Below, in pieces: positions 28,115 to 43,170 of a DNA stretch of 64,000 bases (positions are counted from its first letter, which is position 1; every line of letters begins with the position of its first letter). The notes beneath the pieces were generated by a model. The model was not told where the DNA came from. It made no database searches and worked only from the letters and a program-made list of their open reading frames with translations. The stretch is from Amycolatopsis deserti (GTDB lineage Bacteria > Actinomycetota > Actinomycetes > Mycobacteriales > Pseudonocardiaceae), in assembly GCF_014653945.1 (NCBI RefSeq), contig NZ_BNAU01000003.1, positions 558,001 through 622,000 on the forward strand, written 5' to 3'. Position numbers and translations under genes: made by a program.

Positions 28115-29271
28115 TCGTCGTCCTCGCTTCGGGAGCCGCCGCGGCGGGAGGGCGCGAACCGGCGGCGGGGCGGTTCGAGCGGGGTCAGTACGACGGGCGG
28201 CCGCGGCGGAACGGGTTCGTCGTCGTACGCGTCTTCGGGTTCCAGGTCGGGGAAGCCGGTCACCTTCGGCACGAGCGCGGTCGACTCGACCGGGGCGCCT
28301 TCCCCGAGCCGCGCGACCAGGGCCGCCCCGCGCGCGACCGCGAACGCCGGCTCCGGCTCGGCGACGACCCGGCACCCGGTCAGCTCGCCGGCCAGCTCGG
28401 CCAGTAGCGGCACCGCCGCCGTGCCGCCGACCAGCAGCACCGCGCTCAGCCGCTCGTACCGGCGCAGCGGGTCCAGCGTCGCGAGCAGACCGGGCCGCGC
28501 CAGGCGGTCGAACTCGGCGCGCGTCACCCGCACCGGCCCGATCTCGGTCTCGGGCACCGCCGACAGCCGCTCCTTGGCCTCCGCGCACACCAGTCGCAAC
28601 GCCGAGGGCGCCACATCGCCGCACCGCTCGCGGACGTGGTCGAACAGCAGGTCGTCGAGCGTCTTGCCGGCCGTCGGCTCGGCCGGCTCGGCGTGCGCGA
28701 CCAGGTCGAACGTCGCGGGCCCGCGCCGCAGCACGGCGAGGTCGGCGTGCTCGCCCCCGATCCGGACCACCCCGACCAGGGTCTGCGGGTCGATGCGCTC
28801 ACGCGCGAGATGCCCCTCCGCGGCCGCGACCGGCGTCGGCAGCAGCATCGCGGGCGGCAACCCGGCCGCGGCCAGCGCGTCGAGCAGCAGCTTGCGCCGG
28901 TAGGTGCCCCAGGACGGCGGGTGCGTGACCGCGATGCGCTCGGCCGGCTCGCCCTCGTCGGCGGCGATCTGGTCGACGACCCAGCCCGCGACGGCCGCGG
29001 TCAACGCCTCCGCCGTGTACAGCTCGTCACCGAGCAGGAACGGAACGTCATCACCGATTCGGCGCAGGAACCCCCGCGCCACCCGGTCGGGTTCCCCGAC
29101 CGAACGCCGCAAGGCCTCCGCGCCGACCGACACGGTCGCGTCGAAAGCGACGTGCACGACGGACTCGACCAGGGGTCCGGCCACCGGCTCCGACCAGCGT
29201 TCGCCCACGTCACGGCACACGGCAGCGGCGATGCCGGTGCTGCCGATGTCGATGCCGAGAACGTGACGCAT
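28111..29271 (-). CDS. Hsp70/DnaK-like ATPase-domain protein of the ini locus
   Basis: 386-residue Hsp70-superfamily protein with only the actin-like ATPase domain: N-terminal phosphate loop VLGIDIGSTGIAAAV, RIAVTHPPSWG, TLVGVVRIGGEHADLAVL, and VLLVGGTAAVPLLAELAG. A substrate-binding domain is absent. The C-terminus is a Pro/Arg-rich tail. It is divergent from iniB and co-transcribed with, and overlapping, iniR. In mycobacteria a small unrelated gene separates iniR and iniB, so this chaperone-like partner is characteristic of this relative. It may modulate IniR or assist IniB. The ATG at 29271 has a GTGAGGA Shine-Dalgarno, but a GTG at 29292 is also possible. Confidence 0.8.
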   Translation of the reverse strand: MRHVLGIDIGSTGIAAAVCRDVGERWSEPVAGPLVESVVHVAFDATVSVGAEALRRSVGEPDRVARGFLRRIGDDVPFLLGDELYTAEALTAAVAGWVVDQIAADEGEPAERIAVTHPPSWGTYRRKLLLDALAAAGLPPAMLLPTPVAAAEGHLARERIDPQTLVGVVRIGGEHADLAVLRRGPATFDLVAHAEPAEPTAGKTLDDLLFDHVRERCGDVAPSALRLVCAEAKERLSAVPETEIGPVRVTRAEFDRLARPGLLATLDPLRRYERLSAVLLVGGTAAVPLLAELAGELTGCRVVAEPEPAFAVARGAALVARLGEGAPVESTALVPKVTGFPDLEPEDAYDDEPVPPRPPVVLTPLEPPRRRFAPSRRGGSRSEDDE

Positions 29272-29498
29272 AGGGGTTGAATCCTCACTCACGGGGTCGC
29301 CCCTTCGTACCAAAGTCGCCCGTTGGGGTCACATCCCCTAATCCCCTAACGGGTGGCCCCGATGGCCTCGGCGAAGGTTGCGGACCGATCCCCGATGCCT
29401 CGGTAACGGAACGGTCACTAGGTTCGGCCCAGGCGTCCTGCGGTGCACCCTGGACGCCTTGTCCGTTTTCAACCCCCCGAGATCCGCGGAGATATTCC
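29272..29498. promoter_or_regulatory. Divergent ini control region with CCCCTAA repeats
   Basis: 227-bp region between the Hsp70-iniR and iniB-iniA-iniC transcripts. CCCCTAA occurs twice in tandem at 29335-29341 and 29343-29349. Related inverted copies are TAGGGGTTG at 29271-29279 and GTTGGGG at 29322-29328. CCCCGATG-CCTCGG is also repeated near 29357 and 29390. The CCCCTAA group is a plausible IniR operator. A TAGGTT at 29419-29424 may be the -10 box for iniB. Confidence 0.45.
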
Positions 29499-31694
29499 TT
29501 GTCTCTCCCCGCCCAGAACCTGCACGAGTTCGTGCTGACCCTGCTGAACGACGAGGCTGCCCGGGCCGCGTTCGCCGCCGACCCGACCAGCGCGCTCGCC
29601 GCCGCCGGCTTGAGCGACGTCACGCCGCAGGACATCCAGGAAGTCGCCCCGCTGGTCGCCGACTACGCCCCCGCTCCGCTGGCCGAGGCGCTGTCCGCGC
29701 TGCCGCTGGACGCCGACGTAACCGACCTGCAGGGCGCGATCGCCCAGCTGCAGGCCGTCGCGGACGCCGCCGACGCGCTGCCCGTCGCGACCCCCGAGCT
29801 GCCCCTGGACGTCCCGGCCCGCGCCGACCTGCCGGTCGACACCTCGGCCCTGCCGCTGGACGCCTCGGCCCTCCCGCTCGACGCCTCGGCCCTCCCGCTC
29901 GACGCCTCGGCCCTCCCGCTCGACGCCTCGGCCCTCCCGCTCGACGCCTCGGCCCTTCCGGTCGGCGGCGAGCTGCTGGGCGACCTGCCGCTCGAGCTGC
30001 CCGAGCTGGGCGACCTGCCGCTCGACGTCCCGGCCCTCGACGGCCTCCCGCTGGACGTCCCGGCCCGCGAGGACCTGCCGGTCAACGCGCTGCCGGTCGA
30101 CCAGCTGCCGCTGGACGCGCTGCCCACCGACGGCCTGCCGACCGACGCGCTGCCGCTCGACCTGCCCGAGTTGGGTGACGTGCCGGTCGAGCTGCCCGCG
30201 CTGGGCGACCTGCCCCTGCAGCCGCCCGCCGTCGGCGACCTCCCGCTGGACGCCCGCAACGACCTGCCCACCGACGCGCTGCCGGTCGACGCGCTGCCCA
30301 CCGACGCCCTGCCGACGGACGCGCTGCCGCTTGACGCGCTGTCCACCGACGCGCTGCCGGTCGACGCCCCCGAGCTGGGCGAGCTGCCGGTGTCGCTCCC
30401 CGAGGTCGAGGGCCTCCAGGGCGCGCTGCCCGGGCTCCCGGTCCAGCTGCCCGCGCTGGGCGAGCTGCCGTCGCTGCCGACCGTCGGCGCCGAGCGTGCC
30501 GACGTCCCGAGCGAGCTGACCGGCCTGCCGGTCGACGCGAGCGCCCTGCCCCTCGACGCGAGCGCGCTGCCCGTCGGCACCGAGGACGTCACCGGCCTCG
30601 CCGAGACCGTCGGCCTGACCGAGCTGCCGGAGACCGGCGGCCTGCCCGTCGACTTCGACACGCTGGGCTCGCTGCCGGTGGACGCCCCGTCGCTGGGCGA
30701 CAAGCCGTTCACCGCGCCCGACCTGGACGTTCCGGGTGTCGGCCGCTTCGACACCGCGAGCGCCGGTTCCGCCGACGGCTACGCCACCACCGTCTCCTAC
30801 GAGGGTGACCTGGCCGAGGGTGCCGCCGCGGCCGCCGCCGCCCCGGAGGGCGCCGGTGTCGCCGGCACCGCGGGCACCCCGGCCGGTGCCTTCATCGGCA
30901 GCGCCGCGGGCAGCACCGAGGGCTTCACCGGCGGCTTCGCCGTCGAGAACAACGAGGGTGAGCTGCAGGGCGGCCTGACCGCCGGTGAGGACGCCGTCCT
31001 CGCGGGCGCTCGCACCGACTCCGCCCTGGGCACCTACACCCTCGGCTTCGACGGCCTGCCCGCCGACCTGCCCACCGACGTCCCGAGCCTCGACGGCCTG
31101 CCCGCCGACGTGCCGAGCTTCGACCAGGCCGGTGACCTGGCCGGTTCGCTCGACTCGGACGTCCTCGGCCGCGCCGAGCCGGCCGCCGGCACGATCGCCG
31201 ACTACATCTCGATCGGTGGTGACCTGGTCGGCGGCGGTGTCGCCCAGAACTCGGCCACCCTCGGCGAGTACCTGACCCTCGGCGGCGCGCAGGCCGGTGA
31301 CCTGGTCACCAACGCCGGCGCCCAGGCCGGCACCGCGATCTCCGACGGTGGCCACCAGGCCGCGGACCTCGCGAGCGACCTGCCCGCCGCCCCCGGCGTG
31401 CCGTCCGTGCTGCCCGCCGCCGTCCCGGCCGAGATCCCGGCCGAGGCGCCCGGCGACGTGCCGGTCCACTTCGGCGCCGAGCTGCCGCAGGGCCTGCCGC
31501 ACCTGCCGGTCGCGAACCCGCTGCCCGAGGTGACCAACCACGTCGAGCACGCGCTGACCACCGACCCGGTCAAGGAGGTCGTGTCGGTCACGAACAGCCC
31601 GCTGTCCGACGCGATCGGCCCGCTGAACCACGCGCCGCTGCCCGAGGCCGCTGACCTCGACAACCTGCACGGCGACCTGCCCCTGGGTCACTGA
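29499..31694 (+). CDS. iniB: IniB-like repetitive envelope-stress protein
   Basis: 731-residue protein. The N-terminal domain (NLHEFVLTLLNDEAARAAFAADPTSALAAAGL) matches IniB N-termini. Residues ~95-400 are a long low-complexity run of SALPLDA, DALPTDALPLD and LGDLPLD repeats. Residues ~410-650 are Gly/Ala-rich, and the end is a Pro/Leu/Asp-rich tail. There is no signal peptide. The TTG at 29499 is the only start that places the Shine-Dalgarno GCGGAG 8 nt away and gives the conserved N-terminus. IniB is induced by isoniazid and ethambutol in mycobacteria; its exact role is unclear. Two hairpins separate it from iniA. The repeat region is prone to length change. Confidence 0.85.
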   Translation: MSLPAQNLHEFVLTLLNDEAARAAFAADPTSALAAAGLSDVTPQDIQEVAPLVADYAPAPLAEALSALPLDADVTDLQGAIAQLQAVADAADALPVATPELPLDVPARADLPVDTSALPLDASALPLDASALPLDASALPLDASALPLDASALPVGGELLGDLPLELPELGDLPLDVPALDGLPLDVPAREDLPVNALPVDQLPLDALPTDGLPTDALPLDLPELGDVPVELPALGDLPLQPPAVGDLPLDARNDLPTDALPVDALPTDALPTDALPLDALSTDALPVDAPELGELPVSLPEVEGLQGALPGLPVQLPALGELPSLPTVGAERADVPSELTGLPVDASALPLDASALPVGTEDVTGLAETVGLTELPETGGLPVDFDTLGSLPVDAPSLGDKPFTAPDLDVPGVGRFDTASAGSADGYATTVSYEGDLAEGAAAAAAAPEGAGVAGTAGTPAGAFIGSAAGSTEGFTGGFAVENNEGELQGGLTAGEDAVLAGARTDSALGTYTLGFDGLPADLPTDVPSLDGLPADVPSFDQAGDLAGSLDSDVLGRAEPAAGTIADYISIGGDLVGGGVAQNSATLGEYLTLGGAQAGDLVTNAGAQAGTAISDGGHQAADLASDLPAAPGVPSVLPAAVPAEIPAEAPGDVPVHFGAELPQGLPHLPVANPLPEVTNHVEHALTTDPVKEVVSVTNSPLSDAIGPLNHAPLPEAADLDNLHGDLPLGH
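29844..29948 (+). repeat. iniB: 21-bp tandem repeats inside iniB
   Basis: Five head-to-tail 21-bp units coding SALPLDA. The last four (29865-29948) are identical at the DNA level and the first differs at two positions. Identity at silent positions points to recent expansion or homogenisation. Confidence 0.95.
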
Positions 31695-31695
31695 C

Positions 31696-31780
31696 CGGTA
31701 GCCGCAACGGCGCGGCTACCGCTCACCGACGAAGCGGCGGGGTTCGTCTCAGAACGGACCCCGCCGCTTCACGTTTTGGT
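31696..31780 (+). terminator. Tandem hairpins between iniB and iniA
   Basis: First hairpin 31696-31721: perfect 9-bp stem (CGGTAGCCG/CGGCTACCG). Second hairpin 31731-31770: perfect 13-bp stem (GAAGCGGCGGGGT/ACCCCGCCGCTTC, 14-nt loop) followed by ACGTTTTGG. This is an intrinsic terminator or attenuator that would lower iniA-iniC relative to iniB. Confidence 0.75.
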
Positions 31781-31803
31781 CACGACACGGCACACTCCTC
31801 CGC

Positions 31804-33603
31804 GTGCTTGCACCGCCCTGGCTCGACGTACTGGACGACACCGCCCACGTCTGCGCCACCCAACGGCGTCCGGATCTCCTCGACCGCATCCGCAGACGCA
31901 GAGCGCAGCTGCTCGACGAGAAGCTGCGGGTGGTCGTGATCGGCGAGACCGGCCAGGGCAAGAGCCAGCTGGTGAACGCCCTGGTCAACGCGCCGGTGTG
32001 CGCGGTCGGCGAGGACGCGACGACCACCGTCCCGGCCGTCGTCACGCACGCCGAGACCCCGACCGCGGCCGTCGTCACGGCCGGTCCGCGGGCCATCGAA
32101 GGCCCGGCCCGGCAGCCGGTCCCGGTCGAGTCGGTCACCGGGCAGGCCAATCGGGAAGCGGTCGCCGTGAGCGGTCCACCGGTCGTGCGGGCCGAGGTCG
32201 GCCTGCCCCGCGCGCTGCTGTCCGGCGGCCTGGCGCTGGTCGACACGCCGGCGCGGGCGGCCATGGAGACCGTCGACTCGGCGGACGCCGTGCTGATGGC
32301 CACCGACGCCACGAGCGAGCTGTCGGCGTCGGAGATCCAGCTGCTCGAGCAGGTCGTGCGGCTGTGCCCGACCGTGCTCGTGGTGCTCACCAAGATCGAC
32401 CTGGTCCCCGGCTGGCGAGCGGTGGCGCAGCGCAACCGCAACCGCCTCGACCAGCGCGGGCTGATGGCGTCGCTGATCCCGGTGTCCGCCGCGCTGCGGC
32501 TGGCCGCGGCCCGCACCGGCGACCAGGCGCTCAACGCCGAGTCCGGGTTCGGCGAGCTGGTCAAGTGCCTGCACCAGGACCTGCCCGGCCAGGCCGACCT
32601 GCTGGCCCGCCGCTCGGTCGCCGCGCTGAGCACCACCACCGTCGAGGCCCTGCAGAACTCCCTGACCGAGGAATACGCCGCGACGCAGCAGCCGGACAAC
32701 GGCGACGCGGTCGCCCGCTGGCACGCCGCCGGGCGACGGCTGGAGAAGCTGCAGCGGGACGCCAGCCGCTGGCAGACGCTGCTGTCCGACGAGGTGTCCG
32801 ACCTGATCTCGGACGTCGAGTTCGACCTGCGCGACCGGACCCGCAAGATCCTGGTCGAGGTCGACGAGTACTTCGAGACCGCGGACCCGGCGAAGACGTG
32901 GCCCGAGTTCGAGGAGTGGCTGCGGGAGAACCTGACCACGGTCGCGGAGACGAACTCGGAATGGCTGCTGGACCGGTTCGAATGGATCGCGCGCAAGATC
33001 GCGCGGCAGGTCGCCCCGCACCGCGAGGACGCGCTGCCCGACTCGCTGCCGCGCGAGGTGCCCGGTGACGCGGTCGGCGACCTGCGGATGCCGCGGGTCG
33101 AGCGGTTCGGCGTCGGGCAGAAGCTGTTCGTCGGCATGCGCGGGTCCTACAGCGGCCTGCTGATGTTCGGGCTCGCCACCACCATCGCCGGACTGCCGCT
33201 GATCAACCCGATCTCGCTCGGCGCGGGCGCGGCCTTCGGCGCGAAGAGCGTGTTCGAGGAGCGCGGCAACCGGCTCAAGCGGCGCCAGCACGCCGCGAAG
33301 ACCGCCGCGCACCGGTACGTCGACGACTTCTTCCTGCGCTACAGCAAGCACAGCAAGGACACCGCGCGGCAGATCCACCGCGCGCTGCGCGACCGGCTCA
33401 ACGGGGTCGCCGACGAACTGCGTGGCGAGATCACCGAGACCGCGAAGACGTTCAAGCAGGCCATCGACGACGACACCACCCGTCGAACGGTCCGGGCGAA
33501 CGAGATCCGGCGGATGATGGACGAACTGAACGTGCTGCGCCGCCGCGCCCAGGCCCTGGCCACGCCCGCGCAGCTGCCCACCCAGCGGGGGATCACCGCG
33601 TGA
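31804..33603 (+). CDS. iniA: IniA-like dynamin-family GTPase
   Basis: 599-residue bacterial dynamin-like protein. The GTPase domain shows G1 IGETGQGKS (residues ~45-53), a Thr-rich switch I (DATTTVPAV), G3 LALVDTPAR and G4 VLTKIDLV. A long helical stalk follows, with a hydrophobic segment (YSGLLMFGLATTIAGLPLI) near residue 450 that could be the membrane paddle. M. smegmatis IniA mediates membrane fission and contributes to tolerance of cell-wall drugs. The GTG start at 31804 follows the terminator region. Its stop overlaps the iniC start (GTGA), so the two are translationally coupled. Confidence 0.88.
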   Translation: MLAPPWLDVLDDTAHVCATQRRPDLLDRIRRRRAQLLDEKLRVVVIGETGQGKSQLVNALVNAPVCAVGEDATTTVPAVVTHAETPTAAVVTAGPRAIEGPARQPVPVESVTGQANREAVAVSGPPVVRAEVGLPRALLSGGLALVDTPARAAMETVDSADAVLMATDATSELSASEIQLLEQVVRLCPTVLVVLTKIDLVPGWRAVAQRNRNRLDQRGLMASLIPVSAALRLAAARTGDQALNAESGFGELVKCLHQDLPGQADLLARRSVAALSTTTVEALQNSLTEEYAATQQPDNGDAVARWHAAGRRLEKLQRDASRWQTLLSDEVSDLISDVEFDLRDRTRKILVEVDEYFETADPAKTWPEFEEWLRENLTTVAETNSEWLLDRFEWIARKIARQVAPHREDALPDSLPREVPGDAVGDLRMPRVERFGVGQKLFVGMRGSYSGLLMFGLATTIAGLPLINPISLGAGAAFGAKSVFEERGNRLKRRQHAAKTAAHRYVDDFFLRYSKHSKDTARQIHRALRDRLNGVADELRGEITETAKTFKQAIDDDTTRRTVRANEIRRMMDELNVLRRRAQALATPAQLPTQRGITA

Positions 33604-34847
33604 GCCTGGCCGCGAGGACGCGTGCGGTCCTGCAGGAGGCGCTGGAGGTCTACCAGGACAGCCCGCGCGCGACGAGCTGGCTGCAGCGCCAGCTGACCCG
33701 GTTCGAGGACCCGCTGCGGCTGGCGGTGGTGGGGCCGCGCGGCTCGGGCCGGTCGACACTGGTCGCCGCGCTGGCCGGGGAGCCGCCGCGGGGCGAGATG
33801 ACGTGGTTCCGGACCTCGCCGGGCCGGTCGCCGGACGAGCTGATGCTGATGGACACGCCGGCGATCGACGGCGGCGCGGCGCCGAGCACGATCGAGGGAA
33901 TCTGCATGGACGCCGACGCGGTCCTCCACCTCGTGCGGCGGCCGTCGGAGGCCGATCTGTCGTTCCTGCACACGCTGCAGGACCACCCGGTGGCGCGGGC
34001 GGCCGCGGTGAACGCGCTGGTCGTGTTGTCCCGCGCCGACGAGCTGGGTGGCGGCCGGGTGGACGCCGTGATCTCGGCCCGGCAGGTCGCGCGCCGCTAC
34101 CGGGTGGCGCCGGAGGTGGCCGGGCTGTGCCAGGACGTCGTGCCGGTGGCCGGGCTGCTCGCCGCGGCGGCGCGCACGCTGACCGAGCCGGAGTTCGCGG
34201 TGCTGCGCGCGCTCGCGGCCGTGCCGCGGGAGGAGCTGGAGCCGCGGTTGCTGTCGGCGGACCGGTTCGCGGCGGCGGAGTTCCCGGCGCCGGTGGCCGC
34301 GTCCGACCGCGCCGCACTGCTCGCGCGGTTCGGGATCTTCGGCGTGCGGCTGGCGTTGACGTTGATCCGCCGTGGCGCGGACACGTTGCCGGCGCTGGCC
34401 GGTCAGCTCGTGCCGCGCAGCGGACTGGCCGACCTGCGCGAGGCGATCGACGGGTACTTCGTGGCGCGGCGGGACGCGCTCAAGGCGCGGTCGGCGTTGA
34501 TCGGGCTGGAAGTGGTGCTGCGCATGGAACCGCGCCCGGCCGCGGCCGGGTTGGCGGCCGGGCTGGAACGGTTGCTGGCCGGCGCCCACGATTTCCGGGA
34601 GCTGCGGCTGGTGGCCGCGCTGCAAACCGGACGGACGTCTTTTTCGGCGGACCTGAAGGCGGAAGCCCTGCGGCTGATCGGAGCCGCGGGAACGTCCCGG
34701 ACCGAGCGACTGGGGGCGGAGCCGGTGCTGCTCGCCGTGCGGCGGTGGCGGGACCAGGTGGAGAACCCGGAGCTGAGCGCCGGGGAGCGTCGCGCCGCGG
34801 CAGTCGTGTTGCGCAGCTGCGAAGCGATGGCGAACGGGACGATCTGA
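33600..34847 (+). CDS. iniC: IniC-like dynamin-family GTPase
   Basis: 415-residue partner of IniA, with G1 VVGPRGSGRST, G3 LMLMDTPA and a degenerate G4 (LSRADEL instead of N/TKxD). The helical C-terminal half is shorter than that of IniA. As in other bacterial dynamin pairs, the two may form heteromeric membrane-remodelling complexes. The GTG at 33600 overlaps the iniA stop by 4 bp. Transcription runs toward a 7-bp hairpin at 34869-34892 that separates it from the convergent peptide gene. Confidence 0.85.
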   Translation: MSLAARTRAVLQEALEVYQDSPRATSWLQRQLTRFEDPLRLAVVGPRGSGRSTLVAALAGEPPRGEMTWFRTSPGRSPDELMLMDTPAIDGGAAPSTIEGICMDADAVLHLVRRPSEADLSFLHTLQDHPVARAAAVNALVVLSRADELGGGRVDAVISARQVARRYRVAPEVAGLCQDVVPVAGLLAAAARTLTEPEFAVLRALAAVPREELEPRLLSADRFAAAEFPAPVAASDRAALLARFGIFGVRLALTLIRRGADTLPALAGQLVPRSGLADLREAIDGYFVARRDALKARSALIGLEVVLRMEPRPAAAGLAAGLERLLAGAHDFRELRLVAALQTGRTSFSADLKAEALRLIGAAGTSRTERLGAEPVLLAVRRWRDQVENPELSAGERRAAAVVLRSCEAMANGTI

Positions 34848-34899: not shown

Positions 34900-35106
34900 T
34901 CAGTCGTCGGTGGAGTCGGCGGGCTTGAGGTAGGCGGTGCCACCGGTCGGCATGCGGCGGAAGAAATCCACCCGGGTGACCGGCTGACCGCAAGGCTGAC
35001 GGCCGAGGCCGGGATTCGGGGAAACAATCCCGTTCTCCGGTCGGGGCACCATCGTTTCGCCGGGCCGGTTTTCGTGTCTCCGGCGAGGGTCCCACTGGAC
35101 TGACAT
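34900..35106 (-). CDS. 68-residue peptide coupled to the HExxH enzyme (candidate modified peptide)
   Basis: 68-residue polar peptide, unrecognised. The N-terminal part is Arg/Pro/Glu-rich (MSVQWDPRRRHENRPGE). The middle is Pro/Gly/Asn-rich (GIVSPNPGLGRQPCGQP, one Cys), and the end is RMPTGGTAYLKPADSTDD. It has no membrane segment or known domain. The ATG at 35106 overlaps the stop of the HExxH gene by one base (TGATG), with a good GGAAGG Shine-Dalgarno inside the preceding codons, so translation is coupled. HExxH-family enzymes usually act on small gene-encoded peptides, and this is the only small gene attached, so it is the best substrate candidate. It could also be an accessory factor. Confidence 0.65.
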   Translation of the reverse strand: MSVQWDPRRRHENRPGETMVPRPENGIVSPNPGLGRQPCGQPVTRVDFFRRMPTGGTAYLKPADSTDD

Positions 35107-36359
35107 CAGTTTCCTTCCGACGCGTGTGTTCCGTCCGAAGAGGACAGTACTCTCCCGCGCGGGGTGGCACGAACCAAGGTCGCCTCCACCAGCGCGGCGA
35201 GTACGGCCGCACGTTCGGCACCGATTTCCGGCAGGGACTTCCCCGCCGGGGCCTGACCAATCTCGACGGCCAGATCTGCCGCTTCCCCGTCGAGCCAGTG
35301 CAATTCCGGTGGGTTGCCGGGACGTCCGGCGAGCACCCGGCCGGTGGACTCCATCCGGGCGAGCCGCAGCAGCGGATCCAGCGCATAGTGGCCGGGGGGC
35401 ACCGGACGGGTGACCGAAGACAGTGGTTCGGGTCCGGTCCCATCACACATCAAGGTGCGCAGGAGCCACTTGGCGTCGAATTCCAGCGCGTCCTCTTCGC
35501 CGAGCAGCCAGCGGCCGATTTCGGTGGCTCGCTCCCGGGCGCGCGACAGCAGCGAATTCGGGCCCAGTTCCGGTGTTTCGCCACGCCGCTCGACGTCCTC
35601 GGCGAACTGCGCGAGGCAGGTGTAGGCGTGGAACGCGGCCACGACCTGCTCCACCGGCCACACGGCCGACGACCAGGACGGCCGGAAGACCCGTCCCTCC
35701 GCGACATCGGCGCCGAGGAAGCTGCGCGTGATCGCGAAGTCGAAGAGCTTGACGTGCGCGCCCTCGTGGATGATCGCCTCGGCCACGTCGTACGCCGACG
35801 ACGGCCGGTCGATCAGGATGAGCCCCGGGAACAGCCGCGACGACGCGGAGATCAGCCCGCCGGAGGTCGCCGGATCGAGGATCACCAGCAGTCCGACGTG
35901 CGCCAGCAGGTCGTCGGCCAGCGCCGGGCTCACCTCGCGGACCTTGCGCAGGCCGGCCTCGACCGTGGCCAGGGCTTCGTCGTCACCGGTCAGCAGCCGC
36001 GGCGGGCGCCGGCCGGGCAGGCTCTGCGTCTGGATGACCCGCATGGCGTCGGCCATCACGTCGTTCGCTCCGGCCCCGGTGGCCACGCGGATCGAGACCG
36101 GTCCCGCGGACAGTTCCGTCGTGATGGGGCCGAGGTCGTCGTCGGCGTCGGTGAAGGGCAGCCGTCCGGCCAGCGCCTCACCGATCCGGAACCGGAACAG
36201 GGGGTTGTCCAGCTGCGCCACCGGAACCGGCTCGTGGCCCGGCGACAGCAGCTCGAGACCCATCCGGTAGAGCGCGCGGCGCTCCTCGATCACCGCGTGC
36301 GCGGGCGCCAGTGCCGCGTGCACGGCCGTGGCATCCGGCCAGGCAGATCTGGAGTGCAT
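35106..36359 (-). CDS. HExxH-motif peptide-modification enzyme (aKG-HExxH beta-hydroxylase-like)
   Basis: 417-residue protein of the HEXXH putative peptide-modification family. The motif AIIHEGAHVKLFDF holds HEGAH at residues 198-202, followed by downstream helices with acidic residues. Members accompany RiPP precursors, often with FxsB-type radical SAM enzymes. Some relatives are reported as alpha-ketoglutarate/iron peptide beta-hydroxylases. No radical SAM gene is nearby here. The ATG at 36359 has a poor Shine-Dalgarno, so the true start could be a few codons inside. A GntR-type operator copy lies 87 bp upstream (36446-36456). It is followed immediately by the coupled 68-residue peptide gene. 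Confidence 0.75.
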   Translation of the reverse strand: MHSRSAWPDATAVHAALAPAHAVIEERRALYRMGLELLSPGHEPVPVAQLDNPLFRFRIGEALAGRLPFTDADDDLGPITTELSAGPVSIRVATGAGANDVMADAMRVIQTQSLPGRRPPRLLTGDDEALATVEAGLRKVREVSPALADDLLAHVGLLVILDPATSGGLISASSRLFPGLILIDRPSSAYDVAEAIIHEGAHVKLFDFAITRSFLGADVAEGRVFRPSWSSAVWPVEQVVAAFHAYTCLAQFAEDVERRGETPELGPNSLLSRARERATEIGRWLLGEEDALEFDAKWLLRTLMCDGTGPEPLSSVTRPVPPGHYALDPLLRLARMESTGRVLAGRPGNPPELHWLDGEAADLAVEIGQAPAGKSLPEIGAERAAVLAALVEATLVRATPRGRVLSSSDGTHASEGN

Positions 36360-36437
36360 CCGAGCGTGCGGCTTCCACTAGGAGGGAACAGCCATGGACC
36401 GCGCGAGAGTACAACTCGGGCGACCGGCCCCCACACC

Positions 36438-36473
36438 GGGGGCGGCTGTCAGACAACAGACGGAGCCGCCCCC
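36438..36473 (-). terminator. Strong hairpin with an operator-like loop between small membrane gene and HExxH gene
   Basis: Perfect 10-bp stem (GGGGGCGGCT at 36438-36447 with AGCCGCCCCC at 36464-36473) and a 16-nt loop, 13 bp after the stop of the small membrane gene. The loop contains most of CTGTCAGACAA (36446-36456), an 11-bp near-palindrome matching the sites in front of the GntR gene. It may be both terminator and operator. Confidence 0.6.
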
Positions 36474-36485
36474 CAGGTTTCGCTC

Positions 36486-36644
36486 CTACGCGCCGGAGCC
36501 GAGGAACGAAACGATCTGCACGAACCCCAGGACCGCCAGTACGAAGCCCGCCGTCAGGGTCATCACGATGACGGTCCGCCACCCGATGATGGTCACCCCG
36601 AGAGCCACCAAGAAAATCACAGCGAACAGAGATTCCGAGTTCAT
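36486..36644 (-). CDS. 52-residue small two-helix membrane protein
   Basis: Short gene read directly from the minus strand. It has ATG at 36644, stop TAG at 36488-36486 and a strong AGGAGGT Shine-Dalgarno 6-7 nt upstream. Two hydrophobic helices (SLFAVIFLVALGVTII and VIVMTLTAGFVLAVLGFVQIVSFL) are separated by a GWRT turn, and third codon positions are mostly G/C. It lies upstream of the HExxH gene on the same strand, separated by the hairpin at 36438-36473, and divergent from the GntR gene. Function is unknown. Position suggests a membrane partner of the peptide locus, or an independent small membrane protein under the same regulator. Confidence 0.75.
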   Translation of the reverse strand: MNSESLFAVIFLVALGVTIIGWRTVIVMTLTAGFVLAVLGFVQIVSFLGSGA

Positions 36645-36736
36645 TGCGAACACCTCCTCACTGGCCGAGGTGACGGCCCGGCTGGTGGCCGGCCGCTCAC
36701 CTGCTGTCGGCAGTTGTATGATCTCGTCGCTGTCGG

Positions 36737-36768
36737 TTGTCTGTCAAGTGACGACACCTGACAGACAA
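36737..36768. promoter_or_regulatory. Paired operator sites for the GntR regulator
   Basis: Two 11-bp near-palindromes, TTGTCTGTCAA (36737-36747) and CTGACAGACAA (36758-36768), with centres 21 bp apart (two helical turns). Together they form a perfect outer inverted repeat with 11-bp arms (36736-36746 and 36759-36769). The idealised half-site pattern is TTGTC-N-GACAA, of the kind bound by FCD-type GntR proteins. They sit between the divergent small membrane gene and gntR. A third copy is at 36446-36456. Confidence 0.75.
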
Positions 36769-36839
36769 CTTGCGTCTGGCATCAGTTTGGAGTTATGGTT
36801 CTCCGAAGCTCGGGGACCCAAGAGCGCGAGAGGTTGACG

Positions 36840-37613
36840 ATGGATGACGAGAGCTGGGCTCTCTCACCGAACACGCGCAAGCCGCTGCCCGAACTGATCG
36901 AGGACAAGATCAGGTCGCTGATCAAGAGCGGCAAGTTCAAGGCGGGTGACCGGCTGCCCACCGAACCGGAGCTGGCCCAGCGGATGGCCGTGGCGCGCAG
37001 TTCGCTGCGCACCGCGCTGCAGCGGCTCCAGCTCCAGGGTGTGGTCGAGGTGATGCGGGGCCGCGGCTGGTACGTCCGGTCGACCGACGTGTCCGACCAC
37101 GACGAGCCGCTGGTGTTCGACCGGCGCGTGAGCGACGCGGACCTGATGGAGGTCCGGATCGCGCTGGAGGCCACCGCGGCGAGTCTGGCCGCGACCAGGG
37201 CGACGGCGGGCGAGCTGGACGACATCGCGAAGCTGGCGAAGCTGCACCAGTCCGCGTCCATCGACGACAAGGACGAGCTGCTGCAGACCGACGAGGACTT
37301 CCACGCGGCGGTCGTGCGGGCGAGCCACAACGAGCTGCTCGACCAGCTGTACCGGTCGCTCGTGCCGCAGCTGCGCGGCTACCGGCGCAACAGCTACAGC
37401 AGCTCCGAGGTGCACGTCCGCTCCGCGAACGACCACAACCAGGTCACCTGGTTCCTCAAGCGCCGCGACGAGGGCGGCGCCCGCGCGGCGATGGCCACGC
37501 ACCTGCTCGGTCTGTACAGCGACCTGGTCGCCCAGACCGGCACCCCACCGGGCGAGCGGGCCACGCTGACGACGTACGCGCTGGAGGACGAGCCACGCTG
37601 GCAGCGGGAGTGA
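36840..37613 (+). CDS. GntR-family regulator, FCD (FadR) subfamily
   Basis: 257-residue regulator. The N-terminal winged HTH (KPLPELIEDKIRSLIKSGKFKAGDRLPTEPELAQRMAVARSSLRTALQRLQLQGVVEVMRGRGWYV) is followed by an all-helical FCD domain. The latter has the metal-binding pattern EDFHAAVVRASHN (Asp/His) and later His residues (NDHNQ, ATHLLG). It is expected to bind a small carboxylate and repress its own and divergent genes through the TTGTCNGACAA-like sites at 36737-36768. The ATG at 36840 has a GAGAGG Shine-Dalgarno. Confidence 0.9.
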   Translation: MDDESWALSPNTRKPLPELIEDKIRSLIKSGKFKAGDRLPTEPELAQRMAVARSSLRTALQRLQLQGVVEVMRGRGWYVRSTDVSDHDEPLVFDRRVSDADLMEVRIALEATAASLAATRATAGELDDIAKLAKLHQSASIDDKDELLQTDEDFHAAVVRASHNELLDQLYRSLVPQLRGYRRNSYSSSEVHVRSANDHNQVTWFLKRRDEGGARAAMATHLLGLYSDLVAQTGTPPGERATLTTYALEDEPRWQRE

Positions 37614-37640: not shown

Positions 37641-37692
37641 CACAGCCTCTCCGCCGATCATGGTTCCTGTCGAACCGGGCGGAGAGGCTGTG
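37641..37692 (+). promoter_or_regulatory. Perfect 15-bp inverted repeat sequestering Shine-Dalgarno and GTG start
   Basis: CACAGCCTCTCCGCC at 37641-37655 is the exact reverse complement of 37678-37692, leaving a 22-nt loop. The 3' arm contains both the Shine-Dalgarno (GGAGAGG, 37681-37687) and the GTG start (37690-37692) of the following gene. In RNA this would mask initiation completely. It could also act as the gntR terminator, 28 bp after its stop. Confidence 0.75.
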
Positions 37693-38865
37693 ACAGCTGG
37701 GGAGAAACAGCGGCCTGGTGTCGAGGCGCGCCCGAAACCCCGCCCGGGTGTCCTGCGCGTCGCGTCCGGTTTGGTGCTCGCCGGGGTCGCCGCGCTGCTG
37801 ACGGTCGTGTCCTGGCACGCCGGAGCCGGCTGGCCCACCGCACTGCACGACGTGCTGGAGGCGGTGTTTCCGCTGGTCATCGTGGCGGGGGCGGCGATCG
37901 GCGGGTACGAGCTGTTCGTCCACCCGTGGCTGGTGAGCGAGATGGCGCGGATCTCCGGGCCGCGGATCGTCGAGGCGCTGCTCCCCCAGCAGGTCATGGA
38001 GACCTTCCTGCACTCGATCTACGGCGACAACGAGGCCAACCGCGACGTGGTGACCGGCGTGCTGGGCGGGGAGGGGCTGCGCCCGCTCGGCGGGGACCTG
38101 ACGATCAGCACCCACACCGGGGTGACGTTCGAGCTGAGCGCGGTGGACCACGAGATCTACCACCTGACCACCGCGGTGACGTACAGCTTCAAGAAGAACG
38201 TGCACGTCGACCGGTTCATCATCTTCGCGACGTGCGACGCGCTGCTGCGGGACTCGATCAGCGCCGGGTGCCAGCTGCCGCTGTTCGAGCTGTGGTTCGT
38301 GCCGGACAGTTCGCTGTTCGAAAGCTCGGTGGACGACATGCTGCCGTCCGTGCGCCTGCGGATCGAGTACCTCGACGGCGCGGGCAGGCACCACGTGGCG
38401 TCGTCGAGCAGGCTCGAACTGCGCGAGGTGAAGTACCAGCAGTGGGCCGACTACCTGACGTTCTTCCGCACCAACATGGGCCCGCTCCCCCGGCAGAACA
38501 CGCTCGACCACCTCGCCGACCTGCGCATCTTCGAGTGCGACCTGTCCGACATCGCCGGCGACGACCACACGGTGGCCGCGATCGAACGCCTGTCCATGCG
38601 GGCGACGGCGCTGCAACGCATCGACGACGGGTATTGCTACTGGCAGGCGCCGTACCCGTGCTACGTCGAGCGGATCTCCATGTCGGCCAAGGAGCTGGAC
38701 CTCGAGGGCGGGGACGCGTTCGAGTTCCGGGTGGTGCCGTTCACGTTCCGGTCGAACACGGCGTCGGCGCGGTGGTTGAAGCCGGAGGAGCTGACCGACC
38801 TGGACGTGCGGTCCTGGCTGCTGCCGGGCCACGGGGTGGCGCTGTTGTGGCGGCCGGCGAAGTGA
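37690..38865 (+). CDS. Hypothetical two-helix membrane protein with large cytosolic domain
   Basis: 391-residue protein of unknown function. Two hydrophobic helices lie near the N-terminus (about residues 20-38, VLRVASGLVLAGVAALLTVV, and 55-75, EAVFPLVIVAGAAIGGYEL). A soluble domain of about 310 residues follows, with mixed alpha/beta character and segments such as HEIYHLTTAVTYSFKK and YCYWQAPYPCYVERI. No known domain or motif is recognised. The GTG at 37690 is supported by an ideal Shine-Dalgarno but lies inside the 15-bp inverted repeat. An alternative ATG at 37660 sits in the hairpin loop without a Shine-Dalgarno. It follows gntR on the same strand. Confidence 0.75.
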   Translation: MTAGEKQRPGVEARPKPRPGVLRVASGLVLAGVAALLTVVSWHAGAGWPTALHDVLEAVFPLVIVAGAAIGGYELFVHPWLVSEMARISGPRIVEALLPQQVMETFLHSIYGDNEANRDVVTGVLGGEGLRPLGGDLTISTHTGVTFELSAVDHEIYHLTTAVTYSFKKNVHVDRFIIFATCDALLRDSISAGCQLPLFELWFVPDSSLFESSVDDMLPSVRLRIEYLDGAGRHHVASSSRLELREVKYQQWADYLTFFRTNMGPLPRQNTLDHLADLRIFECDLSDIAGDDHTVAAIERLSMRATALQRIDDGYCYWQAPYPCYVERISMSAKELDLEGGDAFEFRVVPFTFRSNTASARWLKPEELTDLDVRSWLLPGHGVALLWRPAK

Positions 38866-39845: not shown

Positions 39846-40321
39846 GTACCGCACAGTAGCCCGGAACCGCGATTACCAACCAACGAGGGACGGCGCTGCG
39901 GTTGAGGATTCGAGCCCACAGGCGCATGCTTGGGGGCAACGGCGGATCGGTCACCGGTCCAGGGACGCACTACCCGGGTGCGGTCCATCGAGCCGTCCGC
40001 CGGGAGAGGGTCAGGTGGTTCAATGACGAGAAGTTCCTCGCGGTTGACTACCGGATACAGCTGTGGACCCACAGCCGGGATGCGGTGAACCCAGTCCGGC
40101 TGTGACTGTGAGCAGCAACGGGTTTCCATCTCGATGCGCCTCGACCATCGCTTGCGCACTACGGCGATTTCGAGCCTGCTTCCGTGCGGTCTCCGTGTCC
40201 GCACAGCAGAGCCACTCGCCGGCCCGCGACGTGGTCAGCCGCCGATTACAATTGACAACCTCGGTAATCCTGGGTGCGGACTCGCTCGAGTCCGCACCCA
40301 GGCTTGTGTGAGGGAGACGCG
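39846..40321. other. 476-bp gap without a supported gene
   Basis: Reading frames here (for example minus 39824-40204 and plus 39902-40105) lack recognisable domains, good Shine-Dalgarno sequences and typical codon bias. GC is lower than that of surrounding genes, as in decayed DNA. The right end holds a TTGACA (40253-40258) and the hairpin at 40269-40300 in front of the metallopeptidase. Confidence 0.5.
40269..40300. promoter_or_regulatory. Perfect 13-bp inverted repeat upstream of the zinc metallopeptidase
   Basis: CTGGGTGCGGACT (40269-40281) and its exact complement (40288-40300) flank a 6-nt centre that itself can pair, so the whole is a near-continuous 32-bp palindrome. It ends 21 bp before the GTG at 40322 and follows a TTGACA at 40253-40258. 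It is an operator or 5'-leader hairpin; there is no U tract. Confidence 0.65.
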
Positions 40322-41233
40322 GTGAGGTTTGACGAAGGCGCCGGGCTGGACACGTCCGAGGTCGACGACCTCCGGGGCGGCGGTGGGGGCATCGGGAGCC
40401 GGGTCGCGCTCGGCGGCGGTGGGCTCGGCATCGTCGGCGTGATCATCTACTTCGTGCTCTCCCAGATCGGCGGCGTGAGCCCGAGCGGTGTGGGCGGCCT
40501 GGGCGAACTCGGGTCCGGCGAGCAGGTCAGCAACGGCACGCTGGCCCAGGAATGCCGCACCGGCGCGGACGCCAATTCCAATCACGACTGCGCGATCGTC
40601 GCCATCGTGAACTCCATCCAGGACTACTGGAGCGACCAGTTCGCCCGCTCCGGCCGCACCTACCGCAGCGCGCAGACGAACTTCTTCAGCGGCGGCGTGC
40701 GCACCGGCTGCGGCAGCGCCACCTCCGACGTCGGACCGTTCTACTGCCCGGCCGACTCGGAGGTCTACATCGACCTGTCCTTCTACGACGAACTGCGCAC
40801 CCGGTTCGGCGCGGAGGGCGGCACGTTCGCCGAGGCGTACGTGCTCGCGCACGAGTACGGGCACCACGTGCAGAACCTGCTCGGCACGTCGCGCCGGGTC
40901 GGCAACGAGACGGGGCCGACGTCGGGTTCGGTGCGGCTCGAACTGCAGGCCGACTGCTACGCCGGGGTGTGGGCCAACCACGCGACGACCACGCCGTCGT
41001 CGACCGGGCGGCCGCTGATCAGCGAGGTGACGCAGGACGACATCGACCGCGCGCTGGACACCGCGTCCCGCATCGGGGACGACTACATCCAGTCCCACCT
41101 CGGCGGCGGGCAGGTGGACGAGTCGCAGTTCTCGCACGGCACGTCGGCCCAGCGGGAGCGGTGGTTCACGACCGGTTTCCAGACCGGCGATCCGGCGCGG
41201 TGCGACACGTTCGGGACGAAGAACCTCGGGTGA
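40322..41233 (+). CDS. Neutral zinc metallopeptidase (YpfJ family)
   Basis: 303-residue membrane-anchored protein. The N-terminal Gly-rich cytosolic stretch is followed by one transmembrane helix (residues ~33-48, GLGIVGVIIYFVLSQI). The outer metallopeptidase domain has ALAHEYGHHVQNLLG (HExxH zinc site) and LELQADCYAGVWA, giving the third acidic ligand. Family features NFFSGGVRTGCG and GPFYCPADSEVYIDLSFY are present. The physiological substrate of the family is unknown. The GTG at 40322 has a GAGGGAG Shine-Dalgarno. The strong palindrome at 40269-40300 lies in its leader or promoter. Confidence 0.92.
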   Translation: MRFDEGAGLDTSEVDDLRGGGGGIGSRVALGGGGLGIVGVIIYFVLSQIGGVSPSGVGGLGELGSGEQVSNGTLAQECRTGADANSNHDCAIVAIVNSIQDYWSDQFARSGRTYRSAQTNFFSGGVRTGCGSATSDVGPFYCPADSEVYIDLSFYDELRTRFGAEGGTFAEAYVLAHEYGHHVQNLLGTSRRVGNETGPTSGSVRLELQADCYAGVWANHATTTPSSTGRPLISEVTQDDIDRALDTASRIGDDYIQSHLGGGQVDESQFSHGTSAQRERWFTTGFQTGDPARCDTFGTKNLG

Positions 41234-41688
41234 CGCGGCTGCGCGAGTGGACCGTTCGCGCGGGAGCGAGTGGGATTCTCGTGGGCCGATGAATGGGACT
41301 CTCGTGGGCTGGCGAGTGGGACTCTCGTGGGTGGAAGCGGCGGACTTCAGCGAGTGGACCACTCGCGCGCCGGCGAGCGGAACTTTCGCGCGAGGGCGAA
41401 GGCTCGGCGCCGCGAAGGGGCCACTCGTGGGCCGGTGAGCGGGACTCTCGTGTACCCATGAATGGGACTCTCGTGGGCTGGTTAGTGGGACTCTCGTGGG
41501 TGGAAGCGGCGGACTGCAGCGAGTGGACCACTCGCGCCGGCGGATGGGACTTTCGTGAGTCGGCGAGGGGGCCGCTCGTTCGCCGGTGAAACGGGCTCTC
41601 GTCAGGCGCGCCCTTGAAGCAAGGCGCGACACTGCAAGCGCGGCACTGCAGGTGGGTGCCGCCCGAGGAGCGGCACCCACCCACCAAC
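41234..41688. repeat. Repeat spacer with ACTCTCGTGGG units and a 78-bp near-identical duplication
   Basis: No gene is supported between two convergent peptidase genes. A short unit GAATGGGACTCTCGTGGG (variants GAGTGG..., GAGCGG...) occurs about eight times, with related GAGTGGACCACTCGCG dyads. A 78-bp block at 41291-41368 recurs at 41460-41537 with only about three differences, 169 bp apart. The inverted ACTCTCGT/CGAGTGG relationships could form small hairpins. Confidence 0.8.
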
Positions 41689-43170
41689 TCACGCCGCGGC
41701 TAGCCTCGCCTCCTGCGCTGCCGGCGAGCGGTGTGGCTTCACCGCTGCCTTGCCTGGCCCCACACCGTTCACGGACTCCGTGCTCAGCGCGAACGTGCCC
41801 AGCGTCCAGGCGATCGCGTCCGCGTTGCGGTCCAGCGCCACCCGGTCCACGTTCCCCAGGTTGTCGCACGCCTGGTGGTAGCACGGGTCGTACGGCACGC
41901 CCGCCTGGCCGCCCCACTTCGCGGCCTGCTCGGGCGTCTTCGCATCCTCCGCGCCCGTGAACAGGCCACCCGCGGGGATCCCGACCGCGATGAACTCGCC
42001 GTAGTCCGAACGGCCGTCGAAGTCCGTGCCCTCTGTCAGGACGCCTCGTCCGTTCAAATACCTCGTCAGCGCAGCCTCGATCTGCGCCGAACCGTACGGG
42101 CCCGGCCCAGCGCCCTCGGCGTCCGAATCGTCGCCGTCGTAAGCGAAGTACGCCGCGTTCGGGGAGCCGATCATGTCGAAGTTCAGGTACAGCGCGATGT
42201 CCAGCTGCTGCTCGAAACTCAGCGAATCGACGTAGTGCGTCGAGCCGACCAGGCCGAACTCCTCGGCGCTCCACCACGCGAACCGCACCGCGTTCTCCAC
42301 CTTCGGCTTTCCGCCGAGCTGCAACGCGATCTCCAACAACGCCGCCGAACCCGTGCCGTTGTCGTTGATGCCCGGGCCCTCCGGCACGCTGTCCAGGTGC
42401 GCGCCGGCCATCACGACGTTGTCCTTGCGGCCGGTCTTCGTCTCGGCGATCACGTTGTAGGACGTGCGCTCCTCCTGGAACTCACGCAGGTCCAACGTCA
42501 CCGTGGCGCCGTTCTGCCCGGCCAGCGCCTGCCCGTCGGCCTGGGAGATGCCGCCCGTCGGGATGCGGGCGGCCGCCGGGTCGCCCAAGGTGCCGTTGAG
42601 CGGCCCGGCCTCGTTGTTGTAGATGATCGCGCCGATCGCGCCCGCGTCCGCCGCGGCCGCCTGCTTCTGCGCGAACGGGCAGGCACCACGCGACACCAGC
42701 ACGATCTTGCCCGCCACACCGGCGTAATCCGACACCTCACAACCGGGCGTCGCGTCCACCGGGACCACCGCCAGCGGCGCGGTGATCCCGCCCGCCGGGG
42801 TCGACGCCGAATACGTCATCACGATGATCGGCACGTCGGCACCGTTCACCGTCAGCTTTTCCTCGATCGTTTCCGTGTAGGTGAACGGGAACTCCTGCCG
42901 CGTCACCGAATACCCGGCGGCTTCCAGCTTGCCGGCGATGTATTCGGCGGACTCGGCGTGCCCGTCGGTTCCGGCCGCGCGGTTTCCGTCGTTGCGGTCG
43001 GCGATGCGTTGCAACGCGATCAGGTGCCGGTTGATGGCACGCGCGTCGGTCTTCTCGACGAGCTGGTCGGGTAGCGGGGACGGGGCTGCGCTCGCGGCCG
43101 GGGTGGCGGCCGTCGCCAATGCGGCGGTCAGCACCAGGGCGGCAAAGGGTCTCTTTGGCCGGAGTGACAT
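41689..43170 (-). CDS. Secreted M28 zinc aminopeptidase with PA domain
   Basis: 493-residue exported enzyme. The signal peptide spans residues 1-28 (ALVLTAALATAATPAASA). A protease-associated domain (CEVSDYAGVAGKIVLVSRGACPFAQK) is inserted in the M28 fold. Zinc and catalytic residues are visible in AGAHLDSV (His/Asp), GINDNGTGSA (bridging Asp), SAEEFGLVGS (Glu pair), LNFDMIGS (Asp) and PCYHQACDN (His). It resembles Streptomyces aminopeptidase S, which removes N-terminal hydrophobic residues. A C-terminal 25-residue Ala/Pro-rich tail is extra. The ATG at 43170 has a weak Shine-Dalgarno. Confidence 0.93.
   Translation of the reverse strand: MSLRPKRPFAALVLTAALATAATPAASAAPSPLPDQLVEKTDARAINRHLIALQRIADRNDGNRAAGTDGHAESAEYIAGKLEAAGYSVTRQEFPFTYTETIEEKLTVNGADVPIIVMTYSASTPAGGITAPLAVVPVDATPGCEVSDYAGVAGKIVLVSRGACPFAQKQAAAADAGAIGAIIYNNEAGPLNGTLGDPAAARIPTGGISQADGQALAGQNGATVTLDLREFQEERTSYNVIAETKTGRKDNVVMAGAHLDSVPEGPGINDNGTGSAALLEIALQLGGKPKVENAVRFAWWSAEEFGLVGSTHYVDSLSFEQQLDIALYLNFDMIGSPNAAYFAYDGDDSDAEGAGPGPYGSAQIEAALTRYLNGRGVLTEGTDFDGRSDYGEFIAVGIPAGGLFTGAEDAKTPEQAAKWGGQAGVPYDPCYHQACDNLGNVDRVALDRNADAIAWTLGTFALSTESVNGVGPGKAAVKPHRSPAAQEARLAAA

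Follow-up and report, generated by a model that had tools for sequence, protein, structure and literature searches.

Members of the aKG-HExxH enzyme family hydroxylate histidine, aspartate, phenylalanine and glutamine, as described in the accessible part of one report (PMC13060819), and oxidative cleavage by other members is described in the accessible part of another (PMC12636437). In ChlH and ChlBH the HExxH domain is associated with, or fused to, a radical SAM enzyme. PflC and PosC of Pseudomonas are stand-alone HExxH enzymes adjoining a small peptide with a conserved C-terminal motif; their clusters include an MNIO-nitroreductase, an acetyltransferase and transporters, and the motif is Gln-rich with ARMD (accessible part of PMC12636437). 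PesO, of the nitrilobacillin pathway, hydroxylates a conserved proline near the C-terminus of its peptide, and its partners are an MNIO, an AS-like enzyme, peptidases and a transporter (accessible part of PMC13060819). Here we describe a related locus in a 64,000-nucleotide stretch of the Amycolatopsis deserti genome (contig NZ_BNAU01000003.1), referred to as the window. It encodes a stand-alone aKG-HExxH-type enzyme, a 68-residue partner peptide, an FCD-type GntR regulator and a membrane protein, orf401. The adjoining enzyme and peptide resemble PflC and PosC, but the motif of this peptide is hairpin-like, and the locus includes the GntR regulator and orf401. We favor, at a probability of about 55%, the reading that this is a GntR-regulated chromosomal peptide-modification module, in which the enzyme modifies its partner and the product works together with orf401 within the cell. 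What direct observation establishes is the gene set with its linkage, the peptide motif and the conserved sites. As far as searched, this is a real, conserved and undescribed combination of known and unknown parts: no published description was recognised in the literature, judged by titles and abstract starts and with subscription journals thinly covered.

Among 297 genomes of the family, the enzyme clade is found in 50, orf401 in 58 and the peptide in 51. The 50 enzyme genomes were kept at E ≤ 1e-30 from 59 with a match; nine with weak or partial matches (G080, G109, G150, G159, G179, G190, G204, G221 and G291) were left out, and in G179 the enzyme is split across contig ends. orf401 is present in all 50 enzyme genomes, and the peptide profile matches 49 of them, the 50th, G280, having a divergent motif. 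The proposal of the initial annotation that the 68-residue peptide is the partner of the enzyme is thus upheld. The peptide occurs without an enzyme above the limit in G117 and G179, fragmented assemblies in which the genes lie at contig ends. G010, the sole member of the genus without the enzyme, also lacks the peptide and orf401. Neighborhoods were taken from 37 of the 50 enzyme genomes, giving 38 loci (G020 twice), and gntR, orf401, enzyme and peptide stand together in all 38, with a partial orf401 match in L087. Three gene orders are observed. In the genus, in g23 and in 11 of 12 g8 loci, gntR and orf401 are divergent from enzyme and peptide; in G202, enzyme and peptide are followed by gntR and orf401; and in genera g3 and g5 all four genes share one strand, in the order gntR, orf401, enzyme, peptide. 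It is telling that the four-gene set is kept through three arrangements, although the locus counts are not independent events, the genomes being related. A class-wide search of 345 genomes found the peptide in the window's own genome only, and orf401 in two, the own genome and a weak match in G334. The locus links an orphan aKG-HExxH clade to a partner whose motif is defined, to a regulator whose candidate sites are mapped and to a membrane partner of unknown fold. The Amycolatopsis species that carry it include named strains, so each step is testable.

The enzyme gene lies at 35106–36359 on the minus strand and encodes 417 residues, with HEGAH at residues 198–202 as the initial annotation reported. 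It matches TIGR04267, the model for aKG-HExxH-type peptide beta-hydroxylases, at 81.5 bits against a curated cut-off of 40. Alignments A1 and A2 each hold 21 sequences of the 38 loci; all 21 aligned module enzymes match TIGR04267 at E ≤ 0.001, and H198, E199 and H202 are invariant in all of them, indicating that the HExxH site is intact. Family membership leads us to infer that the protein is catalytic, probably as an iron/2-oxoglutarate oxygenase. The genome to which the window belongs is close to Amycolatopsis thermalba, whose enzyme is 92% identical. NCBIfam and Pfam scans found no radical SAM family in the 417-residue protein, which is therefore not a radical SAM-HExxH fusion, and none among the 17 window proteins scanned, in line with the earlier remark that a radical SAM partner is missing. 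Searched against solved chains, a profile of the 21 enzymes listed four. The best is 22nu, a radical SAM core domain protein (E 7.5e-6), followed by ChlH (8s5f, E 0.004), a weak match to TfuB1 (6jx3, E 0.04) over the C-terminal part (profile positions 320–411) and an unrelated chain at E 1.1. The HExxH domain is thus common to our enzyme and to ChlH and ChlBH, whereas the enzyme described here has no radical SAM part and falls into a separate group. In a tree with 24 further HExxH domains, taken from other genomes of the class, the 21 module enzymes cluster together with support of 100/98. Eighteen of the 24 comparison domains lie in open frames of at least 600 residues, a length expected of fusions. 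HExxH is the zincin signature as well, raising the question whether the protein is instead a zinc metalloprotease, with the small protein as its target in regulated proteolysis. The family match is to a hydroxylase model, and the profile matches solved proteins of that kind, which makes proteolysis quite improbable.

The peptide gene occupies 34900–35106 on the minus strand and overlaps the enzyme by one base, the enzyme stop and peptide start sharing TGATG as first noted; a ribosome-binding-like GGAAGG precedes it. Loss of this frame in relatives, named beforehand as the observation that would count against it, was looked for; of the 19 genus genomes, its own included, 18 keep the frame. The earlier question whether the peptide is always downstream of the enzyme has a plain answer, as the enzyme is followed by the peptide on the same strand in all 38 loci read. 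Within the genus the spacing ranges from the one-base overlap to a gap of about 200 bases; outside it, a single locus has a gap of up to 1.8 kb. At E ≤ 1 the window's peptide finds nothing in Pfam or NCBIfam, and a scan of 24 relatives gives one weak NCBIfam match (E 0.12). The 24 peptides of alignment A3 were drawn from 46 listed plus that of L090, with the divergent G280 peptide left out.

Conservation is concentrated in the last third of the peptide, V-D/E-F/W-F-R-R-M-P-x-G-G-T-x-Y-x-K/R-P, and the remainder varies. The conserved C-terminal motif of the window's peptide, GQPVTRVDFFRRMPTGGTAYLKP (23 residues, residues 40–62; 34921–34989, minus strand; alignments A3 and A6), looks like a beta-hairpin from its sequence, with two aromatic-rich stretches flanking P-N/T-G-G. 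The ratio of nonsynonymous to synonymous polymorphism (pN/pS) is 0.19 in the 19-codon motif block of 18 genus sequences. For the seven of these 18 peptides that align easily, and for which an N-terminal value was obtained, it is 0.14 in the motif block versus 0.54 in the N-terminal 37 codons. The motif pattern was sought in 30 loci with other HExxH proteins of the class and appeared only in the locus of the own genome, L217; a motif query of plasmid sequences gave no match. Three g8 loci (L072, L075 and L077) have extra motif peptides in tandem behind the enzyme. A strong hairpin of about 11–12 base pairs precedes the peptide start in L060, L063, L065 and L067, and weaker ones are seen in some other species. 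Such an intergenic hairpin possibly sets the ratio of peptide to enzyme; as a conserved element it was rejected, its conservation across species being too low.

A small precursor-like gene adjoins the modifying enzyme in all 38 loci, a feature of clusters for ribosomally synthesized and post-translationally modified peptides (RiPPs). The 68-residue product could therefore be the precursor of a secreted RiPP, with the enzyme decorating its core and general proteases and exporters finishing and releasing it. That the peptide gene follows the enzyme gene directly and has a ribosome-binding-like sequence of its own fits such a pathway, as does a weakly RiPP-recognition-like C-terminal part of the enzyme, considered below. 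Other aKG-HExxH enzymes work in RiPP clusters also without a protease gene (accessible part of PMC12636437). The order of a conserved leader and a variable core is not seen: the N-terminal part is variable and the conserved end is the C-terminal one, although a conserved follower would fit. No exporter was found among the 17 window proteins scanned. Two peptidase genes at 40274–43170 are present in 11 of 18 and 7 of 18 genus loci and in none of the 20 loci of other genera. The motif is also carried by larger phage proteins. Because of the missing exporter, the distribution of the peptidases and these phage proteins, we consider a secreted RiPP unlikely. A TMcin-like role, as a membrane-bound RiPP precursor, was also entertained for the two-helix protein encoded upstream of the enzyme. 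This idea was dropped, as the HExxH protein of TMcin is an S2P-clan protease, another family, according to the accessible part of PMC13252029.

How would the enzyme of an intracellular module select its partner? PqqD-like domains bind precursor peptides. The Pfam family PqqD (PF05402) is weakly matched in 4 of the 21 enzymes, with a best E of 0.0012, and has no match in the window's own enzyme. TfuB1, the weak match to the C-terminal part, is a peptide-recognition protein of a lasso-peptide pathway. Because of these weak PqqD and TfuB1 matches over the C-terminal part, which recall RiPP recognition elements, the enzyme may carry a peptide-docking domain there. We infer from the linkage, the constraint on the motif and this PqqD-like part that the peptide is the substrate. 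The enzyme would bind the hairpin-like motif of its small partner, perhaps through the PqqD-like part, and would hydroxylate or oxidatively cleave it in or near the motif, which may be the docking site, the modified site or both. The turn proline as the modification target is a guess by analogy with PesO. The modified product would stay intracellular, most likely bound or sensed by orf401, and would not be exported as a natural product.

The gene for orf401 lies at 37660–38865 on the plus strand. The protein has N-terminal hydrophobic segments and a conserved domain of about 300 residues ending in PGHGVxLxW (PGHGF in one member). A Pfam scan of 21 members gave no family at E ≤ 1e-3 (best, DUF998 at 0.022), no relative was found in the PDB (best E 0.16), and PHROG gave nothing convincing (best 0.009). 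In two g8 loci, L072 and L078, a satellite motif peptide about 4–5 kb away is followed by a second membrane protein that is distantly related to orf401. This arrangement and the linkage of the module genes suggest that orf401 may contact the peptide. Second copies of orf401 itself adjoin the first in L059 (G015) and in L065 (G012, in pieces), and lie on another contig in G009 (L163). The match in G334, a genome of another family of the class, is a 123-residue protein (L166:7052-7420) that aligns only with the last ~80 positions of orf401.

The regulator gene is divergent, as first described, and encodes an FCD-type GntR protein (PF00392, E 2.5e-18; PF07729, E 1.4e-25) at 36840–37613 on the plus strand. 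Its most likely start by sequence comparison is the ATG at 36840 (257 residues), corrected from 36795 because in L057 a stop codon interrupts the frame a little ahead of the equivalent methionine. The 52-residue two-helix membrane protein, with GWR between its helices, is encoded at 36486–36644 on the minus strand; its ATG at 36644 and the upstream AGGAGGT are where they had been placed. It is present in 18/18 genus loci, 10/12 g8 loci and the single g23 locus, and was not found in the seven loci of g3 and g5. The three near-palindromic sites reported around these genes are also there, two between gntR and the two-helix gene and one before the enzyme, and they recur in every one of the 18 genus loci. 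As listed on the plus strand, site 1 is TTGTCTGTCAA (36737–36747) and site 2, 21 bases from it, is CTGACAGACAA (36758–36768); both are seen in 18/18 genus and 11/12 g8 loci. Site 3, CTGTCAGACAA (36446–36456, plus-strand listing), lies about 100 bases before the enzyme start and recurs in 18/18 genus loci. Each differs from the exact TTGTCNGACAA by one or two bases, and the exact sequence occurs at two other places in the genome.

Sites were counted at 8 or more of 10 matching bases, for which the background in the outer parts of the loci is 0.26 sites per kb. Across the genus the paired sites are 21–22 bases apart and the third lies ~87–122 bases before the enzyme start. Three sites at near-fixed spacing in 18/18 loci are more than chance. 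Outside the genus, the g23 locus has both the pair and the third site; a weak match to the third is seen in 1 of 12 g8 loci. The stretch scanned in the seven g3 and g5 loci has no site in six and a single site in one. Since the gntR gene is divergent, its product is the likely ligand of these candidate sites; the two Pfam domains, the divergent gene and the palindromic sites are as in other FCD-type GntR regulators, and here the regulator adjoins a peptide module. GntR would bind the pair between gntR and the two-helix gene and the third site before the enzyme, and in this proposal the genes therefore answer to one signal. The initial annotation is borne out on one regulated unit and on the shared operators; its gene list had left out orf401, whose linkage is as tight as that of the peptide.

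The most interesting piece comes from the wider genomes and was not visible in the sequence behind the initial annotation: the motif is also phage-borne. A motif-only profile run against the 297 genomes at E ≤ 1e-3 matches module loci, the g8 satellites, fragmented contigs of module genomes and three prophage proteins, and the same three proteins are recovered by the peptide profile. Weaker matches, which begin at E 0.004 and come from genomes that have the module as well as genomes that lack it, were treated as noise; among the matches listed in that band, one (G020:C46) is a known module peptide. The prophage context is given by an antirepressor in G015 and by terminase genes in G013 and G202, and all three hosts carry the module. 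At their most likely starts the proteins have 157, 169 and 328 residues with the motif near the N-terminus, where longer frames with earlier starts exist for G015 and G202. A pattern scan of viral contigs returned two records. One, L169, repeats the G013 prophage; the other, L170, adds one further distinct tagged protein. A relative of that protein, in L202, keeps the motif in a frame that is broken further on. The tagged phage proteins, all with the motif near the N-terminus, are located at L070:7782-8249, L164:7294-7800, L165:7023-8006, L170:11460-11942 and L202:5001.

BLAST among the four distinct tagged proteins aligns mainly the motif. Those of G013 and G202 align over ~128 residues at 29% identity (E 2e-5 to 4e-5), and because of this span a kinship beyond the motif is possible for the pair. 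The G202 prophage protein has relatives in 72 INPHARED records, many of them Gordonia phages; in each of the 15 relatives listed, the aligned part begins no earlier than residue 81, beyond the tag. INPHARED holds no match for the tagged N-terminal part of this protein, nor for the G015 prophage protein or the L170 protein. A motif query of INPHARED returned three Erwinia phage records at E ~3, taken as noise. The viral contigs hold no relative of the enzyme and none of the G202 prophage protein. Mimicry of the host's own peptide was assessed against 38 instances of the motif from 31 loci, all fitting a single regular expression. Two of the three prophage motifs score best against the peptide of their own host, with margins of 1 and 3 points, and the third ranks 16th; at the DNA level the own host is best for none of the three. 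With margins so small, own-host mimicry was rejected as support for the phage link.

A tentative and rather doubtful extension of the modification module is that the motif serves a new clade of 2-oxoglutarate oxygenases as a transferable substrate tag. Modification would switch orf401, which would monitor the cell, and phages would tag otherwise different proteins near the N-terminus to compete for, or hijack, the pathway. The prophages are few, at three, phages are in any case restricted in their hosts, and the comparison with the own host's peptide is weak. If it were true, a post-translational tag would be used by both sides of a host-phage conflict, peptide hydroxylases would serve cell physiology or phage conflict beyond natural products, and the phage-borne tags would be ready-made probes of pathway function. 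The same matches can be read as signs of a phage-related defence or abortive system in which the modified peptide would be the trigger and orf401 the membrane effector, and the phage motifs would be decoys. In the 297 genomes, strong matches to the motif away from module loci come down to three prophage proteins in hosts that all carry the module, two viral contigs add one more, and orf401 is a membrane protein without a known family. Enzyme, orf401 and peptide, however, find nothing in PADLOC at E ≤ 0.1, the flanking genes on one side are constant in 18/18 genus loci, unlike those of a mobile defence island, and the prophages number only three. On this evidence a defence system is unlikely too. 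The GntR protein has one weak PADLOC match (Csa3, E 0.03), and an L160 homologue of the second membrane protein weakly matches LmuB (best E 2e-4).

That the phage proteins have mainly the motif in common would also be expected if it binds a common host protein and is used independently by the small protein and the phage proteins, with the enzyme acting elsewhere. Such a target should exist in genomes without orf401 as well, but at E ≤ 1e-3 the motif is found in no family genome that lacks orf401, and we regard a common target as very unlikely.

Several observations weigh against the modification module that we prefer. Pro53 is invariant in the 24 aligned peptides and missing in the divergent G280 peptide, so that no motif residue is a certain target. 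The PqqD-like match is weak and is missing from 17 of the 21 enzymes. A long branch, of 2.31 changes per column, parts the module enzymes from the other HExxH domains of the class, and because of this separation their use of cofactor could differ. Six genomes, G105 and five of g42, have orf401 but neither enzyme nor peptide, so orf401 can persist without the peptide; in two g42 loci (L155 and L159) a GntR-like gene, judged by eye, adjoins it.

Beside the module, at 28111–34847, lie an Hsp70-like gene, a gene for a 720-residue protein without a Pfam match and two dynamin-like GTPase genes in a row, a set that we take to resemble an iniBAC-like operon. The dynamin-like pair flanks the module in 18/18 genus loci and in 0/20 loci of other genera. 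Because of the latter count, co-transfer of the pair with the module was set aside. The first dynamin-like GTPase matches PADLOC LeoBC at E 5e-11.

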